From IMG/VR virus record IMGVR_UViG_3300030085_002240, positions 1 through 26,518 of that record: a stretch of DNA of 26,518 nt; one strand, written 5' to 3'. Below the pieces are notes generated by a model that saw only the letters and a program-made list of their open reading frames with translations, made no database searches and had not been told where the DNA came from. Origin of the DNA: a virus. Shown here piece after piece: positions 11,401 through 26,518 of this stretch. Both the position numbers and the translations under genes were made by a program. Numbering within the stretch: position 1 is the stretch's first letter; each line of letters starts with the position of its first letter.

Positions 11401-14400
11401 TATTCTGTAAATAATAGACCTATTGGTTTTCGTGATATTACTTCTGAAACGTTTCACGGACAAAATTTGTATAGGTATTTAGATACACACTCCTCTGATT
11501 CAGCATCAATTACAGGAAAAAATGTTATCACTGTTGATATGGATGCAATACAAAATATTATGGCTACAACTAGTAATTTAAGAACTATTTCTTCTTCGTA
11601 TAAATTTTATCCGGGTTCTGGCTTTAATTCTTCTATTGTAAGTGATGGTAATTTAGGAGCAGTAGATAGAGTATTAAATCATGCTAAAACAGAAAATAAA
11701 CCTGTTGTTGGTTCTAACTTTGCTGATGCTAAAAATTATAGTGCAGCCACATCTACATTTGCACCACATAATTTTAAATTAAATACCAATTATAGTAAAA
11801 TGGACTCATTACCAAAAGCAACAATTGATACCTCTCTTGATTGGGGAAGAGGTAATTTAGGTCGTCAAAGTTCTTTTAGAGAAGAAGACCAAGGAAGATT
11901 AAATGCAATAAATAGAGCAAGAGAATACTTAGAACATATTCATAAAAGTGCAGAAAAATATTTTATATTCTCTGTTGCTGATATATACCCGGATTCAAAA
12001 CAAAGGGAAACAAATATTTTAAATGGTAGTAAATTATTTACTGATTACAATATTATGTTATATGGTGAACCAACAAAAGAAGAGAGTAGTATAACATATG
12101 AAGATTTAATTGGTAGTGCAAGTAGAGAAAATAATACAGATGAAAATTTTGAAACATTAACTATTTCTGAATCATCAATAAACCCCTCGGAAATTAAAAG
12201 ATTTGGTGTAATGCGTTTAACCGAATTATGTTTTGATTGGCACTTTAATGTCGTAGACCCTGAAAATATTGTAGAACATAAAACCACTATACCTAATTTT
12301 ATATATAGCGCACAAAATATAATTGATAGAAGTAGTCATGGAACTGTTACTGGTGCAGTTGATTATAATGCTAGTTCTAATACTACTATCGAAATACCTG
12401 CCTCTAGTCATGGTTTAGGACATAGTGGTGGTGAATTAATATTTTACGAAGATGGTAATATGGTAGGTAAACTTCATAGTTCATCTACCGCAAATACATT
12501 AATATTCTTAAACAGTGAAAACCCTAATGGTATTGGTTCAAATAAAAATGGAGAATTTCCTGTTCATACTGGAACTGCAACTAAATTATATAAAATTAAA
12601 TCTGCATTTTTCTCAGGTGAAGAGTTAGTAGATACATTAGTGATGGGACAAGGTAAAGAAGATACTTTACTTAACATTAAAGGTTTTACTACTGATTCCC
12701 ATGTAGCAGATTTAAGTAATTTTCCAACTAATAGAAATGAAGGATTTGGTATGTATAGGGGTGCAGTATTTAAAAAGGATGATACTGCCGCAAACCACAA
12801 ATTTGACCATGTTAATTTTGAATCTATACAATTGAATGACCAAAACATACAACTACCATTAATGTTACAACAAAGAACTAGTGGTAGTTATGTTAATAAT
12901 AACTCACTAATCGTTCAAAGTGATTCATGGACAGAAGCAGAAATTACTTCAGGTCAAATAATAAGTAATGCATCAAATGTTAGAACAGTTGGAACATTAA
13001 CTGGAATTACTTGCACAGATGTTGCTACTACTGGAAGCACTTCAAATGATTTAGAAGTTACAGTAATTACAGAACAAATAGGTGGTGGCGGATATAACTT
13101 TGCTACTAGTAAAGTATTCATTACAAATAATCCTAGTGGTTCTTATGTTGATGGAGATACAGTTAAAATATTAAAAGCAGATATAGGGACTTCTGGTGGA
13201 ACTGATATTGAATTTACAGTTCGTAGAGGAACAGGTTCTAGCGGTAATGGTGTATTAGATAGAATTCATCCTTCTAGAGTTATTGAAGCATTACAAGTTA
13301 ATTCACAGGGAAATAATACAGGAGCAAGCAATTTTATAGTTAATAAAGATACAATATTAACTCACAATATTTATTATCCTTCTAGAATAGTTTTATTCGA
13401 CAAATATAATTTAGATAGAGGAACATCCGGTAGTTCTAATTCACCAAATAATCTAAATATACCAAATTTTGACGGTATGTGTTTAGCGGTTGGAGAAGGA
13501 GCAGTAAATGTTAAAATAGATGCTAAAACAGGTGGAGCAAGATTTAGTTCATTATTTTTACCATTGTATGAAAATTTTGCAGTTGGAGCAGATGTTAAAG
13601 CAGGTGATTATATTGGTATGGGTGCTGAATATTTCTTTAAACCTATACTTAAATTAAAAGTTCAAAGTAGCACAAGTAGTGGAGTTCCTGCTTTAGAAAC
13701 TACTACAAAAAATGGGACTACTCATACTACAATTCACATAAATAATTATAGCGACTATATATCTTCTGATGGCGCAGGTAATGACCATCCTAATAATTAT
13801 TGGTTAGATTTTGGGCCTAATTTAACAGGATATTATTTAGCAGATATGAATGGTTATATGACTGATATTGATGATGTAAGTAGCACAAGATATAGTGGTT
13901 TTGAGATGGAACTTGGTTCTTCTTACTCTGTTCAACCAGAAAAATTATTGTATGTTGTTTCACATACAATCATAGGTGATTCAAATGGTATAACACACAA
14001 AATTGTTTTAGATGGAGATATAAGCACCGCAGTTACGCCCTTTTTAAGATATTATAGGATATTTAAACCATCAGAAGTTTGTTTCCATGAAAATACACCA
14101 AACAAATTAGAATTTTATACTATGAACTCTGAATACACAAAAATGCCAAGAAGCGATAAAATGTATGGAGATGTTGCAGACACTAATACATTTCAAAATT
14201 CTATTGTTGGTTTACAAGGTAGTAACGCAGTAATTCAAGGAGAATCAGTTAGTCCTCCAAGAAAGGTATCAATTGGGTATAAAGACGCAGTATTATCTAT
14301 GTATGTTATAATAGATTCTGATAGATTAGGTTCAGGAGATAATTATGTTGTTCGTGACCCAACAAATTTCTTTGGTGAAGATAAAGCATTAGGTAAAGGA

Positions 14401-19474: not shown

Positions 19475-20916
19475 TCTGTCACTTCCAATCTAACATAAGC
19501 AGTTTTACCTATTTTCTTTTCTTCAAAGTATTTTGATGCTTCCTCATTCCACCAACGATAAACAGTCGCTATACCTTTTCCTGATTGTTCTCTAAAATTG
19601 GCTAAAAGAAGTTTCTTTGGAACAAATTCATCTTCATCTTTATTCATAGAGTGATAAATGGTTTTAAATCTACCAACTTGCTTTTGTTCAACAACTGACT
19701 TATGTTCCTGCTTAAGTGCTTCGTCTAGCCATGATACAAGCGACATATAACTCTGTCGCACAATTCTTGCTGCTTGAAGCGCATTTCGTGGTTTAACAAT
19801 CCATTTTGCTTTTTCATCACTTATACTGGGTGCTTCTGCAATACAATTTAGAGCAGATAATCTAAACATCATAACCAATAATCTAGAAATAAAACTCTTA
19901 GCAGCGTGTTTAACTTCTGGTCTAGCATTATGAATAAACTCTTCCATCTGATAATATTGTTGCATTATAACTTCTCTTACTTCATTCGGATATTCTAAAG
20001 TTTGTAAGGGGTCTTCATTTACTTCATTAAATCTTTCTAACACTTCTGTATAAATAGAATTAAATGCTAAAGCATATTTTTCAACAGGCGTTGCTCTATC
20101 ACTAATAATACCCATTGACCTAATAACCATTTCACGCATTTCTCTAATTTCTTTTTCATCCACTTCTCTAACAAATATTAACATTCTTTGTAATACTCCC
20201 TTTTCTGCAATTAGAGTAGAAAGATTGTGTGGAATATAAGAAGTAGCATAAGAACTTCTTCTACACTCACAAACTAAAGTATTTTCTGAATGAGTAAGTT
20301 TCTTTTTAATTTGCCAATTTTGTCCATGCAAACTATTCATAAAAGTATTCAAATAAACAATTACATTTTGCTTATGTTGTGATTGACTAAATACTCCAGA
20401 ATATTCAAACTCATCCCAATAAGCCAAACCTTGACCATGTAATGCTCCATTAACTTGTTCCATTCTCTTTTCTCTACGAATGTTACCTTCATCATCTGTT
20501 TCTTCTATTTCTACTGGTTTGAAAGAACCAATAAGTGTTCCATCTGTATAGTCATCCAAATCGAATATATCATATCTTTTGCCTTGAGTTTCTTCCATAA
20601 TCTCATAAAGCCTTCTAACTACTGGACCCACAAAGTTATACATTTCTGATTTACCGGAACCTGAAGTTTGAAGCCAAAGAACATGTATTCTACAATCTTC
20701 AATACTTCTACCGACTGGTAATGCTACCATATCTTTTACTATATCACCTAGAATATTATAGAATAACATTGTTGCAGGAACAGGATTTTTCTTAGAAACC
20801 TCTGTTGCTGATTTAACCCAATCTTCTACAATTGCAGGTAATTTACTTTCTATTGTTGGTGTATCTTCATAAACCTCTTCATAATAATAAATATCGTCAT
20901 CGTTTTCTTCACTCAT
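19471..20916 (-). CDS. AAA+ ATPase, MCM / DUF3987-like replicative helicase candidate
   Basis: The protein has 481 residues. Walker A is QTSGSGKS with K89; Walker B is LAYWDEFE with D168 and E169, similar to the DEFD of MCM helicases. A GVLQRMLIFVRE segment (240-251) carries an Arg where related ATPases have a sensor or finger residue. The last 65 residues (FKTIYHSMNKDEDEF ... ATVYRWWNEEASKYF) look like a winged helix, as at the end of MCM proteins. The N-terminus is very acidic. No OB-fold or zinc domain precedes the ATPase, so it is shorter than a cellular MCM. Within this operon a helicase that works with the primase and polymerase is the best reading; a different DNA-processing ATPase is possible. 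Confidence 0.65.
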   Translation of the reverse strand: MSEENDDDIYYYEEVYEDTPTIESKLPAIVEDWVKSATEVSKKNPVPATMLFYNILGDIVKDMVALPVGRSIEDCRIHVLWLQTSGSGKSEMYNFVGPVVRRLYEIMEETQGKRYDIFDLDDYTDGTLIGSFKPVEIEETDDEGNIRREKRMEQVNGALHGQGLAYWDEFEYSGVFSQSQHKQNVIVYLNTFMNSLHGQNWQIKKKLTHSENTLVCECRRSSYATSYIPHNLSTLIAEKGVLQRMLIFVREVDEKEIREMREMVIRSMGIISDRATPVEKYALAFNSIYTEVLERFNEVNEDPLQTLEYPNEVREVIMQQYYQMEEFIHNARPEVKHAAKSFISRLLVMMFRLSALNCIAEAPSISDEKAKWIVKPRNALQAARIVRQSYMSLVSWLDEALKQEHKSVVEQKQVGRFKTIYHSMNKDEDEFVPKKLLLANFREQSGKGIATVYRWWNEEASKYFEEKKIGKTAYVRLEVTE

Positions 20917-21599
20917 ATTCTCACCTTCTCTTCTGTATTTAATGCGTTAATTATTCTTTCTGCTACTGTATTACCAAACTTAGGTAAACTAGCAATTTCT
21001 TCTGTTGTTGCTTCACCAATTTCCATTATAGAACCAAAAGTTTCTAACAATAGTTTTGCCTTTGCAGGACTTACTCCCTTAATAGTTGAGAGTATATCTA
21101 TTCTCATATCAGTAGATGTTAGAGTTTTAATTATTTTTGGTGATTTAATTACTCTTTCTACTTTACTCATTTTACAAATACTAGTTATTATTCTCGCGGC
21201 TTCTTCTACGTTAGGAACCCAAAACGGTTTTACATCATAATCTAAAACCATAGCACCCATAGCACCATAAAATTTAGTTCTTAACATAATTTGCCTATTT
21301 CTTTCTGGCATCTTACTGAATGAATGTTGAGTATAAGTCAAAGCATCCTTCATTTCACCATAAATAATAACTACATTATTTTGATAATTTCTATCCATAT
21401 TATCTATTTGATTCCATATTCTTCCACTAATTGCAGAAGCCAAGAAATCATGTGTTGATTTTGCTTCAAAACAACACTCACCATGAACATAATCTCCTAC
21501 CTTTAATCGCTCTATTTTATAGGGCATATTTAATCTAGTAGCCTCAGAAATAACATATTCCTTTAATGCTGATTTTTCACGGTCATCAATAGTAATCAT
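20913..21599 (-). CDS. XPF/ERCC4-family structure-specific nuclease with tandem HhH
   Basis: The protein has 228 residues. The nuclease fold starts ITIDDRE (D5, D6, R7, E8), then VGDY (G35, D36), FEAKSTHD (E45, K47, D51) and an SGR at 58-60, matching the GDX(n)ERKX3D core of XPF/Mus81/Hef nucleases with Ala in place of the Arg. The C-terminal 60 residues contain two helix-hairpin-helix units (IKGVSPAKAKLLL and LPKFGNTVAERII) that bind branched DNA. There is no helicase domain, so it resembles the short crenarchaeal XPF rather than Hef. No PIP motif is seen at its C-terminus. The role would be cutting forks, flaps or recombination intermediates during viral replication. Confidence 0.85.
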   Translation of the reverse strand: MITIDDREKSALKEYVISEATRLNMPYKIERLKVGDYVHGECCFEAKSTHDFLASAISGRIWNQIDNMDRNYQNNVVIIYGEMKDALTYTQHSFSKMPERNRQIMLRTKFYGAMGAMVLDYDVKPFWVPNVEEAARIITSICKMSKVERVIKSPKIIKTLTSTDMRIDILSTIKGVSPAKAKLLLETFGSIMEIGEATTEEIASLPKFGNTVAERIINALNTEEKVRI

Positions 21600-21853
21600 T
21601 TAATTCCTCTCCGTTTTGCACAAGTCGGACAATAGGTTAAATTAGTCATTGGTTCTATTATTCTAGTATATGGAGAAACTCTTTTTCCACACATAATACA
21701 AGTTCCTTTAGGTGTTCCCTTATGTCTTGAACCAAAATTCTTTTTATGTTTGCGATTGAATTTTTTAGCAAATTCACCCCTAGCACGTTTTTTATCTAAC
21801 TCATCCATTACGTCTTTCCAATCCTTTTTCTTATCATTATTTTCATCAGTCAT
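21596..21853 (-). CDS. Small zinc-finger protein with basic N-terminal half
   Basis: The protein has 85 residues from ATG 21853. An in-frame GTG at 21862 lies inside AGGAAGTGAT, a one-mismatch match to the archaeal ribosome-binding consensus, so the ATG four bases further on is the better start. The N-terminal half is Lys/Arg-rich (RKHKKNFGSRHKGTPKG). Two CxxC knuckles follow: CIMCGK, and CPTC about 20 residues later, near the C-terminus. It may bind nucleic acid. It overlaps the nuclease start by four bases, so it may serve as partner of the ERCC4 enzyme. No family is assigned. Confidence 0.65.
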   Translation of the reverse strand: MTDENNDKKKDWKDVMDELDKKRARGEFAKKFNRKHKKNFGSRHKGTPKGTCIMCGKRVSPYTRIIEPMTNLTYCPTCAKRRGIK

Positions 21854-21866
21854 TTTAATCACTTCC

Positions 21867-21950
21867 TTATTCTATTATAAATCCAAATTCTTCTAATGTT
21901 CTTTGTCTAATTATTCTAAATCCAAATTCTGTTAATTTTGTTTGTCTCAT
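21867..21950 (-). CDS. 27-residue microprotein with two tandem PIP-box-like motifs
   Basis: ATG at 21950 overlaps the primase stop as ATGA, the coupling used throughout this operon; the frame ends at TAA 21867-21869. The product consists of M plus two 13-residue units, Q3TKLTEFGF and Q16RTLEEFGF, each matching QxxLxxF of PCNA-interacting (PIP) motifs. The second aromatic is shifted by one place (FGF rather than FF), so they are near-PIP rather than canonical. The two DNA units (21909-21947 and 21870-21908) match at 31 of 39 positions by my count. It could bind two protomers of a PCNA ring, compete for them or link clamp clients. That it is a gene rests on the coupled start and the conserved repeat. 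Confidence 0.55.
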   Translation of the reverse strand: MRQTKLTEFGFRIIRQRTLEEFGFIIE

Positions 21951-23008
21951 TCTGCATACCTCCAACATTTTCCAATACAATATCCTTGTGGAATTAATTT
22001 CGTTTTACAACCGGGAGCATTGTAACCACCGTTCACTATTCCTCTTACATATTTAAGAGTAGTGTATTTATCCCAATCTAACCAAACATTATCTTGTTCA
22101 GCGATTGATTCTATTTCACCCATAATAATTTGGGTAATTTCTTTCTGTTTTTCAAATGGTATAATACGTTCACCCATCGTTAATATATCTCTATACCATT
22201 GAATAAGATATACTCGCGCCTCATGACTAGGATTTTCTACCATAATAGCGTTATGAATACAAGGTAATAAAGGAATCTTTCCTACTGATTCAGGTATTTC
22301 TACTTCTACATCTGCTGCTTCTACCGTAGTGACTACTGGCCATTTAACTAAAGTATTTCCAATATTATTTTTAATTCCTCTAGGGGATAATGCATCATAT
22401 AAAATAGCACCTAAATCTCTAATCATATCAGACATAACCAAAGGAATACAATAAAATGGAACAGGATTTTGTTCATCTCCTAATTTAGAATCACTACTTA
22501 GATTCATTGTATTAGGAATCCTTCTTAACCTATTAGTTTGTATTCCACTACTATCTAAAGTAGGTCGTTCGTCATGATTATTATTCTTTCTAAATTCAAT
22601 TAAGTGATTAACTAATTGCTGATAAAAGGATTGAATCTGCCTAATATCATTTGCTACTTCACCGTAAACAAACATATGAAAACCCTTACCACTAAAATAC
22701 ATTTTAAATACATAATCATTTTCATAAAAATATCTAGCAGTTTCTTTAACATCTAAAAACGATTCTTCTAACGGCCTATCGTGTGAATCAAAATCTAAAA
22801 ATGCTCTATCTAAAATAACAGAACTATCTACTTTAGAATTAATATGAAACTTATCAAAATCATAAACACTAGTATAGCAATTCATTCTAGTGTTATACAT
22901 CTTGACCCAATTAACATATTCATCCTTTGAACGCACAATTAATCTTTTAAATTGTGGTGCATTTTTAATATGACTACCAGCCCATACTTCTCTCGGAAAC
23001 TTCATCAT
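21947..23008 (-). CDS. Archaeo-eukaryotic primase, PriS-like catalytic domain plus PriL-like Fe-S domain
   Basis: The protein has 353 residues. The primase (AEP) motifs are FLDFDSHD with D72 and D74, FSGKGFHMFV with S106, G107 and H111, and LDSSGIQTNRLRRIPNTMN with D152. The C-terminal part has PCI (C250), then an H-R helix (SHEARVYLIQWYRD) and GYNAPGCKTKL, QGYC, CWR (C334, C344, C348), the layout of the PriL C-terminal domain that binds a [4Fe-4S] cluster. A single chain therefore carries the parts normally divided between the small and large subunits. Its role is to make RNA or DNA primers for the viral polymerase. It is coupled to the next gene by ATGA. Confidence 0.8.
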   Translation of the reverse strand: MMKFPREVWAGSHIKNAPQFKRLIVRSKDEYVNWVKMYNTRMNCYTSVYDFDKFHINSKVDSSVILDRAFLDFDSHDRPLEESFLDVKETARYFYENDYVFKMYFSGKGFHMFVYGEVANDIRQIQSFYQQLVNHLIEFRKNNNHDERPTLDSSGIQTNRLRRIPNTMNLSSDSKLGDEQNPVPFYCIPLVMSDMIRDLGAILYDALSPRGIKNNIGNTLVKWPVVTTVEAADVEVEIPESVGKIPLLPCIHNAIMVENPSHEARVYLIQWYRDILTMGERIIPFEKQKEITQIIMGEIESIAEQDNVWLDWDKYTTLKYVRGIVNGGYNAPGCKTKLIPQGYCIGKCWRYAE

Positions 23009-24301: not shown

Positions 24302-24444
24302 TTCATCGCCTCTTTTAATTTATTTATGAATTGTTCCATGTGCATAATTCTAGCATGTAGTTTATTAACTCTTTCCTTAAGTTCTTTTATTTCTTCGGAT
24401 TCTTTTGGTTTTTCTTTACTTGTAAATTTTTCATACCATTTCAT
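24298..24444 (-). CDS. 48-residue coiled-coil microprotein
   Basis: ATG 24444 overlaps the PolB C-part stop (TAATG). The product starts MKWYEKF and then has a charged helix from about residue 16 to the end (EEIKELKERVNKLHARI and on) with Ile, Leu, Val and Met at heptad positions, suggesting a short coiled-coil dimer. It lies directly behind the polymerase C-part. It might help join the two polymerase parts or tether another factor, but nothing in the sequence shows this. Confidence 0.6.
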   Translation of the reverse strand: MKWYEKFTSKEKPKESEEIKELKERVNKLHARIMHMEQFINKLKEAMK

Positions 24445-25385
24445 TAAAACCACTCATCCAAACTTCTTTGTTTATTATCTAATTTTATTTCTGTAATATC
24501 CCATTCCATTGCTCTGAATATTGGTTCAGATTTCTTAACTACTGATTCAGCATAATGCGCCCAATCAGGTTCATATTTTGGTAATTCATCTACTGTCTTA
24601 AATGCAATATATTTTGCTTCTCTAGGTAAACCATTTAAAGGATTGGTAAATACAATATTTGAATTCCTTATTTTGATATAAAGAAATGAGTCAGTAATCT
24701 TATTATTAGGGTTAATAATATCATGTATTACAGCACCTTCTGTTGCACTTCCTAATGAAAGCCTTTTACCTTCCAATGTAGTCCAATAACTACCATCACA
24801 ATCAGGGCATCTTAATGTTGCACCATTATTTTGTAAATCAGATAATTTGATTGCTTCATCGTAAGTAATAGTTTTTTTACATTTCTTAGTATTCCAACCA
24901 TTAGCAATATTACCATTACATTTCATCGTAAATCTTTCTGGTCTATATCTAGTTCTCATAGTAATATCGCTAAGTTCAATATCACCCTTTAGAACATCAT
25001 TATAAATAGAACGACAATAAGATACTATTTCTGATTTAGGTTTATTTTCCACCCACATTCTTAATACATCTAGTTGTGTTCTTTTTGCTAATGGAGTAAT
25101 AGATACTCTTTTAGCAGTAAATCCAGTCATGATAAACTCTGGTTCTTCTAACCAATTACCATCCTTCCAAGAAATTAATCCAGCATTTCTATTCTTAGTA
25201 GTGCCAACACCTAATGTTTGATAATACTTTTCAAACTCTAAAGATACTGGGTGTTCCTCTAAACCTAAAACATTTGGAAATTTAGTTTTAACATGTTCAT
25301 TAATTTCTTCAACAACTTCTTGTGCTTGTTCAACGGAATCAATTTTTACATAAATAGAATCAGTATGTCCGTAAACTACATCCAT
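24444..25385 (-). CDS. polB: Family B DNA polymerase, C-terminal part (motif C, thumb, PIP tail)
   Basis: The protein has 313 residues. Motif C is within the first ten residues: VVYGHTDSI, with D9 as metal ligand and His in place of the usual first Asp. TKNRNAGL (about 63-70) corresponds to the KKRY region. A thumb follows, interrupted by a zinc ribbon (C156, C169, C193, C196). The C-terminus KQRSLDEWF is a canonical PIP box (Q306, L309, W312, F313) for PCNA binding. GAGGA lies about ten bases before the ATG, so it is translated as a separate chain that must associate with the N-part to give an active polymerase. Confidence 0.85.
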   Translation of the reverse strand: MDVVYGHTDSIYVKIDSVEQAQEVVEEINEHVKTKFPNVLGLEEHPVSLEFEKYYQTLGVGTTKNRNAGLISWKDGNWLEEPEFIMTGFTAKRVSITPLAKRTQLDVLRMWVENKPKSEIVSYCRSIYNDVLKGDIELSDITMRTRYRPERFTMKCNGNIANGWNTKKCKKTITYDEAIKLSDLQNNGATLRCPDCDGSYWTTLEGKRLSLGSATEGAVIHDIINPNNKITDSFLYIKIRNSNIVFTNPLNGLPREAKYIAFKTVDELPKYEPDWAHYAESVVKKSEPIFRAMEWDITEIKLDNKQRSLDEWF

Positions 25386-25387
25386 AT

Positions 25388-25675
25388 TTATTCCTCTTCT
25401 TTAACTTCTAACATCTGTAATGATTCGACAAACATCTTTACCTTTTCTATACTTTCATCTGAATTTATATAATCTTCAAATGCGGTAATAAAAGGTGAAT
25501 TGATAGGTATTATCGCACTATTGAAAATAAATGCGCCAAAGGCATATCTAATTTCAGTATGACCACATTCCGAGCAAAATGCTCTTTCATCATATGGTGG
25601 TTGAGTATTCGATTCAAGTATCATTGTTTCATTATCACATCTCATGCATTTAGTATATTGTGTTATTCTTTCCAT
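25388..25675 (-). CDS. Zinc-ribbon protein lying between the two polymerase parts
   Basis: The protein has 95 residues. Two CxxC knuckles, C10/C13 (KCMRC) and C34/C37 (FCSEC), make a zinc ribbon; residues about 44-60 are hydrophobic (AFGAFIFNSAIIPI) and the C-terminal 25 are acidic and helical. AAAGGAG lies upstream of the ATG, one base after the PolB N-part stop; two bases separate its stop from the PolB C-part start. It has no intein motifs. It could be a subunit that sits at the polymerase split, or an independent gene that landed there. Confidence 0.75.
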   Translation of the reverse strand: MERITQYTKCMRCDNETMILESNTQPPYDERAFCSECGHTEIRYAFGAFIFNSAIIPINSPFITAFEDYINSDESIEKVKMFVESLQMLEVKEEE

Positions 25676-25676
25676 T

Positions 25677-26518
25677 TTATTCCATCTCCTTTGCTTTAAA
25701 TGCTGCTTCTCTTATTGCTTCTCTAGCACTAGCAGTTATTGATGCAGCAATATCAACATCTGCCCAACCAAATCCTTGAAAAGCAGTAACTCCATAAAAT
25801 GAAGCCATTAATCTTTTCACCGCCATTTGATTGTTATTCCATTTAGCGTATTCTGCTTTGTCTTCTTTAACATAAGCCTCTTTCATTCTACGCTTATAGT
25901 CATTCCGTAATTCTTTCAATTCTAGAACTGCGGAAGGTAATAATCCTAATTTATCTGTTTTGTAATATAACATAGATTTATGCTTACATTCTGAGAAATC
26001 TCTAGGTGTAAGTATATTAACAGCAAATTCAGTAGGATTTACACTCTTTGTTTCCCAACTAATATTTCTTGCTACCATCATAGAAGGATATAGACCTGCA
26101 AAATCAAAAGCAGCCACATTAAAATGTAATCCGTTAGTTCCTTCAGAAAGTGGGTCATAAATCATAGCCCCTTCATATTCAACACGATTTTCTACCTTTT
26201 TTCCAGTTGGTGCTTTCCATGTAGCATTTCTCATAAAATAAATACTTCCCATATTACTAGCATAAAAACATGCATCAAAAGGTGCTTTTAGTAATCGTTG
26301 TAATGATAAAATTGCTTCGGAAGTGTAATTTTCTTCATCAATCCTTACCATCAATTCAACATCTTTCTTTGCATAATCTAGATAAGTTTCTGTATCTTCT
26401 AACCAAGCCTTCAAGAAAAACTCATTTTTATCAGGAAACTTTTCAGACACTAACTTCTTTTCACCTAAAACTTCTGTTGAAATATAATCTAATGAAAGAG
26501 AAGGTAGTGTTCCTCTTT
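25677..26518 (-). CDS. polB: Family B DNA polymerase, N-terminal part (exonuclease end, motifs A and B), cut by window edge
   Basis: The frame is open to the window edge, so the GTG at 26450 is internal. In reading order it has LPSLSLDYIS and LGEKK, then YLDYAKKD, the Exo III YxxxD of the proofreading domain; motif A AFDFAGLYPSMM with the catalytic Asp; motif B NNQMAVKRLMASFYGV; then the ASITASAREAI helix. It stops at KAKEME, exactly where other family B enzymes run into motif C. The missing part is encoded 292 bases further on, after a zinc-ribbon gene. It is archaeal/eukaryotic B-type rather than protein-primed: no TPR1-like insertion is visible between motifs A and B. Confidence 0.88.
   Translation of the reverse strand, partial: RGTLPSLSLDYISTEVLGEKKLVSEKFPDKNEFFLKAWLEDTETYLDYAKKDVELMVRIDEENYTSEAILSLQRLLKAPFDACFYASNMGSIYFMRNATWKAPTGKKVENRVEYEGAMIYDPLSEGTNGLHFNVAAFDFAGLYPSMMVARNISWETKSVNPTEFAVNILTPRDFSECKHKSMLYYKTDKLGLLPSAVLELKELRNDYKRRMKEAYVKEDKAEYAKWNNNQMAVKRLMASFYGVTAFQGFGWADVDIAASITASAREAIREAAFKAKEME

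Follow-up and report, generated by a model that had tools for sequence, protein, structure and literature searches.

A minus-strand open reading frame in the viral DNA analyzed here (positions 21950–21867 of the whole 26,518-nucleotide stretch, hereafter the window; the TAA stop is included) encodes a 27-residue microprotein, MRQTKLTEFGFRIIRQRTLEEFGFIIE, which belongs to a previously unrecognized family of tiny viral proteins consisting almost entirely of one or two motifs of the PCNA-binding (PIP) type. Binding to a clamp through its PIP pocket is the best reading of the motif grammar, the selection and the genomic context taken together, and we regard such binding as highly probable.

The microprotein gene and its neighbors

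The microprotein is built of two 13-residue units, which agree at 31 of 39 bases (11 of 13, 8 of 13 and 12 of 13 at codon positions 1, 2 and 3, respectively); when the window was simulated 20 times with a first-order Markov model, no adjacent pair of 39-mers as good as this one arose. Each unit holds a PIP-like motif, QTKLTEFGF at residues 3–11 (21918–21944, minus strand) and QRTLEEFGF at residues 16–24 (21879–21905, minus strand). The ATG of the microprotein (21950–21948) overlaps the TGA of the primase gene (21949–21947) in an ATGA coupling, and a Shine-Dalgarno-like site, GGAGGT, can be read directly in the 3′ end of the primase gene (21958–21963, minus strand), 7 nucleotides before this ATG. 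Both the repeat in a 27-residue frame and the coupling of its start to the primase stop, which the sequence-only reading had described, were thus borne out, all on the minus strand. An alternative in-frame ATG at 21968 would yield a microprotein of 33 residues. The window contains two short ATG-initiated frames in which the pattern Q..[LIMV]..[FWY] occurs twice, compared to an expectation of 0.045 for a Markov window; the one other than the microprotein frame (13520–13657) lies out of frame within a long gene, and its double motif looks like a chance occurrence. The microprotein frame itself is predicted to be a genuine translated gene, co-translated with the primase.

The plus strand of the window carries the structural genes and the minus strand carries a replication block, comprising an exonuclease, a 481-residue protein, an ERCC4 nuclease, the primase, a PD-(D/E)XK (Cas4-like) nuclease and a split PolB. 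The primase (21947–23008, minus strand) is of the archaeo-eukaryotic type: its homologues give weak Pfam matches to PriS and PriL, its AF2 model matches primases and PrimPols (e.g., S. solfataricus PriS, E 9e-5), and its DFD and FSGxGFH motifs are invariant. The weak matches of the homologues to both PriS and PriL suggest a compact fused primase. Four invariant cysteines are located in the C-terminal half of this protein. An ERCC4/XPF-type nuclease with an HHH domain (20913–21599, minus strand; Pfam ERCC4, 1.7e-16) is the right-hand neighbor of the slot in relatives; in the window, an 88-residue treble-clef-like ORF (21596–21862, minus strand), with related sequence in the closest relatives, lies between it and the microprotein. 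The N-terminal part of PolB (25677–26450, minus strand) runs off the window end, and in relatives the gene of a PCNA-fold clamp lies directly upstream of it. The C-terminal half (24444–25385, minus strand; Pfam DNA_pol_B) ends in NKQRSLDEWF, a canonical C-terminal PIP box, and a PIP-like tail is found clade-wide. Between the two halves is a 95-residue ORF (25388–25675) that had no Pfam or PHROG match.

Recurrence of the double motif in related viruses

The evidence that the microprotein is a real gene is comparative, in that divergent viruses carry the double motif in the corresponding gene slot. Four primase-anchored scans of viral contigs yielded a set of 152 viral loci, in which some contigs are represented twice; the double motif was also scanned for directly, and a relaxed pattern allowing any spacing was then applied to the 152 loci. 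In the first primase-anchored scan, near-identical viruses were found to carry the same ORF, and L057 and L058, with a primase identity of only 48%, carry MRQTTLIEFGLKVNRQMTLIEFGLDVDN in the same slot. Overall, the double motif occurs outside known genes in 42 of the 152 loci, either in the primase–ERCC4 or in the PolB–Cas4 interval; small frames after primase genes in related viral genomes, where the earlier reading had suggested looking, indeed hold the same double motif. The distance from Q to Q is 13 residues in every member of these two slots, and two other, unrelated double-motif matches, downstream of the module, are chance-like. Identity of the window microprotein to those of L057, L144, L163, L169 and L302 is 56–67%, as opposed to only 30% to that of L178.

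The presence of the microprotein is all-or-none by clade (3/3, 2/2, 11/11, 13/13 and 11/13, and 0 in the remaining clades), both missing contigs in the 11/13 clade being without the PolB end. Since many related viruses showed no detectable copy (13 of 26 and 20 of 26 contigs in two overlapping sets that are mostly fragments), the function of the microprotein would be dispensable or replaced in them. Decayed copies were sought in the slot of the clades that lack the ORF and none was seen, the slot holding unrelated ORFs or having no gap. Clades that lack the ORF at this position often have the microprotein at another one.

Motif grammar and purifying selection

The recovered sequences comprise 28 distinct amino-acid cores, all of which display the PIP-box sequence motif (Q, an aliphatic residue at +3, an aromatic residue at +6) in both of their motifs. 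In particular, Q occupies position 0 in both, +6 is F, W or Y, and +3 is L in 26 of the 28 cores in one motif and in all 28 in the other, the remaining two having I. Position +5, which was outside the search pattern, is E or D except for three cases of N or S; the columns of the first motif are Q, L/I, mostly E/D and F/W/Y, and those of the second motif are invariant Q, L and D/E, followed by F/Y. Position +7 is mostly G, with some I, M, L, V, Y, D or N, so that a second aromatic residue is usually absent, although the PIP-box formula, Q-x-x-h-x-x-a-a, has a hydrophobic or aromatic residue at this position. On the sequence evidence, this grammar reads as the archaeal PIP consensus.

The motif residues are under strong purifying selection, with pN/pS of 0.06–0.15 at the Q, L/I, E/D and F/W/Y columns compared to 0.35–0.79 elsewhere. 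It is to be noted that the search pattern itself specified Q and the kinds of residue allowed at +3 and +6, but left the spacing, the acidic +5 and the T/K at +2 free; because of this pre-setting, the weight lies on the columns that were not fixed in advance, on the unvarying spacing and on the large number of synonymous changes. The sequence-only reading had named relatives without the frame, or neutral drift at the Q, L and F positions, as grounds for giving up its proposal. What was found at these positions is the constraint just given rather than drift, and on the side of the relatives, sister clades possess the canonical QTKLNEFF, and clades lacking the slot copy often have one in another place.

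The same reading had considered the match imperfect in having FGF in place of FF. The difference is real, but it is no obstacle, since Fen1 tails from one archaeal phylum, which end in QTTLGRWG, QTTLGKWG or QKSILSWG, also combine a single aromatic residue with G at +7. Archaeal PIPs without the second aromatic residue have been described in A. fulgidus RNase HII and H. volcanii polymerases (PMC3504372), and a close relative, L003, has FIF in its second motif. Together, these three observations argue that position +7 is permissive.

Wider family of forms

Other forms were found with the A1 profile and subsequently by scans at spacings of 14 and 15. Two of these, MRQTRLPEFGFTGFGHRQSKLTEFGFSFE (spacing 15) and MENSRQTTLEEFGFTFGERQTTLEEFGFVFQ (spacing 14), adjoin a small lipoprotein gene. 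Single-motif forms also exist, e.g., MRVTLTLENSRQTTLEEFGFVFE, one of them near a viral RFC, and in L126, L022 and L027, one or two motifs are fused to a lipobox N-terminus. Fusions to a Zn-knuckle, 72–83 residues in length, are encoded just after polB, and the canonical QTKLNEFF is among them; this and QTTLEEFL are sister versions that are textbook PIPs. The standalone and the Zn-knuckle forms reside inside the replication module, in the primase–ERCC4 or the PolB–Cas4 interval. As a separate observation, proteins that combine a Zn-knuckle (CxxC) with tandem PIPs in L273, L289, L324, L357, L367 and L406 share a conserved C-terminal tail, ESIG...RG. In L265:2179–2607, L263:1658–2164 and L264:1611–2075, one or two PIP motifs are situated in the n-region of a predicted lipoprotein (...RQTRLTEFGIVLLFLCSSLAGC...), which may represent a clamp motif fused to a signal or anchor segment.

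A search for cellular homologues by a GTDB-wide scan for the double motif returned only chance or repetitive frames, and the phage collection and the PDB chains gave no match and no meaningful match to the microprotein, respectively. No earlier description of a PIP microprotein family was found in the literature searched, which included the descriptions of magroviruses.

A clamp gene upstream of polB

Pfam PCNA_N and PCNA_C searches of the relatives found nothing. Reliance of these viruses on host PCNA, which that result had suggested, was overturned by the genes located upstream of polB and by the fold of one of them. The gene directly upstream of polB has profile matches to the beta clamp (2e-6) and to PHROG 947, 'DNA polymerase processivity factor' (1e-11). 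Its AF2 model (pLDDT 89.7) has a clamp fold, with T. kodakarensis PCNA1 as the best Foldseek match (E 5e-13, TM 0.70/0.72) and H. volcanii and A. fulgidus PCNA as further top matches (E about 1e-12); among viral models, it matched an unnamed protein and a protein of Haloarcula vallismortis tailed virus 1. Judging from the model, the polB-upstream gene is a predicted divergent PCNA-fold clamp. Such a clamp gene is found directly upstream of polB in L417 (13858–14625, minus strand) and, in the window's own virus, at L078:176–937 (plus strand), just beyond the window end at 26518; AF2 and Foldseek place the clamp with archaeal PCNA, and it is missed by the Pfam PCNA models and mostly by beta-clamp models.

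The clamp gene was present in 21 of 29 genomes tested, and the other eight were of clade B/Zn. Absence of a clamp from clade B/Zn was rejected, as a syntenic clamp-like gene was found there (hhalign probability 96%, E 2.9e-9), which in the genomes examined is a very divergent relative. An RFC-type clamp loader is encoded in the same genomes. The tails of PolB differ as well, clade A having, with few exceptions, a PIP-like box, xxx[LF]x[ED]W[FW], and clade B/Zn ending in PKAYGWW, PKKYGW or similar, without a PIP.

Target and mode of action

In the mechanism that we favor, both PIP-like motifs (Q-x-x-L-x-E/D-F, continued by G-F/L and a short hydrophobic strand) would dock in the pocket where a PCNA-type clamp receives its clients, and the unattached peptide would compete with the PIP-box proteins that this clamp normally binds; since it has no other domain, its effect on clamp clients could mainly be to compete with them or to mark them. 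The two motifs would raise the apparent affinity by avidity or rebinding, not by bridging neighboring protomers. The most likely target would be host PCNA, since the virus itself supplies the clamp, the clamp loader and the PolB for its replication. As a decoy against host PCNA, the microprotein could bring replication and repair in the host to a halt, or make host factors available, and the viral replisome would be spared. We consider this explanation in its entirety, i.e., docking in the PIP pocket, host PCNA as the target and competition as the mode, to be evenly poised between right and wrong.

It should be recognized that PIP boxes are short linear motifs, the sequence of which alone cannot prove the partner, and that a second candidate target, the viral clamp, is present on an equal footing, which counts against host PCNA. 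The virus's own PCNA-fold clamp could be bound by the microprotein to tune the viral replisome, a reading that we hold to be rather unlikely; its possible forms, viewed with the same doubt, are that the peptide stops unloaded clamps from sticking, blocks the access of PolB or nucleases in a stage-wise manner, or serves as a PIP adaptor acting in trans. It fits with the clamp or clamp-like gene found right upstream of polB in the microprotein genomes checked, with the primase-coupled or post-PolB position that puts the microprotein in supply with the replisome, and with clade B/Zn, where the tandem-PIP gene comes directly after a PolB devoid of a C-terminal PIP. However, the motif does not co-diverge with either the viral clamp or the PolB tail, the PolB of clade A already has its own PIP in a different dialect (EWF/EWW), and many relatives with the same clamp have no microprotein. 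A role as a mere substitute for a missing PolB PIP was also considered and fails for clade A, in which PolB keeps its PIP.

The balance appears to tip toward host PCNA as the target, since the viral clamps and the PolB tails (EWF versus KAYGWW) diverge and the motif remains almost unchanged; indeed, the viral clamps across these clades are too divergent for BLAST and are linked only by profile–profile alignment. This preference is based on missing co-divergence and may prove mistaken if the canonical pocket is common to the two clamps. The earlier proposal of a PCNA-binding-like microprotein holds with regard to the two PIP-like motifs and a conserved, real gene, whereas the viral clamp leaves the choice of target two-way.

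The repeats could alternatively be a short linear motif for another receptor, their PIP likeness being coincidental or secondary, given that short motifs are easily mimicked, that +7 is usually G and not aromatic, and that the lipoprotein-fused forms of L022, L027 and L126 hint at a membrane context. We deem this improbable, since the conserved columns are exactly those of a PIP box, canonical FF and FL versions occur in the family, and the genomic context is one of clamp, loader, PolB and primase. Bridging of two protomers of one ring or stapling of two rings, which the sequence-only reading had put forward, is very improbable. The exact 13-residue spacing in all members of the two slots does suggest a geometric constraint, but forms with spacings of 14 and 15 and with a single motif exist, so that a strict geometry is not needed family-wide. 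Neighboring PIP pockets on the PCNA trimer are roughly 45–50 Å apart, whereas only four residues separate the nine-residue motif cores, allowing a maximal Q-to-Q reach of an estimated 35 Å or so; for the protomers of a single ring, this linker is too short, and that part of the earlier proposal is not supported. Lastly, an ORF that arose by chance or that serves as a translational spacer separating the primase from the next gene, which would suit the very short frame and the many relatives with a slot empty of it, has a negligible likelihood and is refuted by the comparative data, namely the recurrence of the double motif among divergent viruses and in three different slots, the motif codons under strong purifying selection amid many synonymous changes, and the fused forms that show the segment to be coding.

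Relation to known systems and significance

A close analogy to the proposed decoy is TIP, the Thermococcales inhibitor of PCNA from T. kodakarensis, a protein of 64 amino acids that in vitro blocks the stimulation of PolB and Fen1 by PCNA (PMC4929162); its inhibition of PCNA indicates that competition works on an archaeal clamp. TIP is a small archaeal protein that binds PCNA, as is predicted for the microprotein, and has a putative N-terminal PIP motif. TIP, however, is cellular, restricted to Thermococcales and has one PIP together with a putative PH-like domain, a combination of length, domains and origin not found in the 27-residue viral microprotein; the viral forms have about 27–45 residues and one or two PIPs, with no further domain when standalone, and sequence homology is not claimed. 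That archaeal viruses contact host PCNA is seen from Gp1 of the rudivirus SIRV2, which is reported to bind host PCNA3 (PMC5537682), although Gp1 of this rod-shaped virus is a larger, DNA-binding protein and not composed of PIPs only. The QxxL/IxxF grammar is shared with PIP peptides of the p21 type and with the C-terminal PIP boxes of archaeal Fen1 and RNase HII, but those are tails of large proteins; in the microprotein, the motif is essentially the whole product and is usually duplicated, and the fixed 13-residue period is a feature of the window's group.

The Magrovirales, tailed viruses of marine Poseidoniales such as Aobingvirus yangshanense, have in the ICTV description a PolB split into NTD and CTD, an AEP primase, a clamp and RFC-S, and their replication module is transcribed in the direction opposite to that of the structural module (PMC10768690). 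The virus of the window resembles them in gene content and layout, and its host would by analogy belong to the order Poseidoniales, on the strength of this resemblance to magroviruses.

As a broader proposal, advanced tentatively and as somewhat short of an even prospect, tandem-PIP peptides of 27–45 residues may act in a widespread group of marine archaeal viruses, equipped with a clamp and a clamp loader of their own, as decoys that shut off or reprogram host PCNA, in the form of a module that has moved among three slots and has in places been joined to a Zn-knuckle or to a lipoprotein. The microprotein would be a natural minimal clamp-binding gene of marine archaeal viruses, made essentially of PIP motifs only, usually doubled, and offers a ready peptide for probing archaeal PCNA. 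Two motif dialects coexist in one genome, EFGF in the microprotein and EWF in the PolB tail; two clamps, and with them two PIP dialects, are to be expected in an infected cell, which would provide a clean system in which to study how clamp specificity is encoded. These findings suggest that archaeal viruses have evolved short peptides as a means of taking over the clamp, and if this is true, the decoy would be one of the smallest genes dedicated to host takeover.
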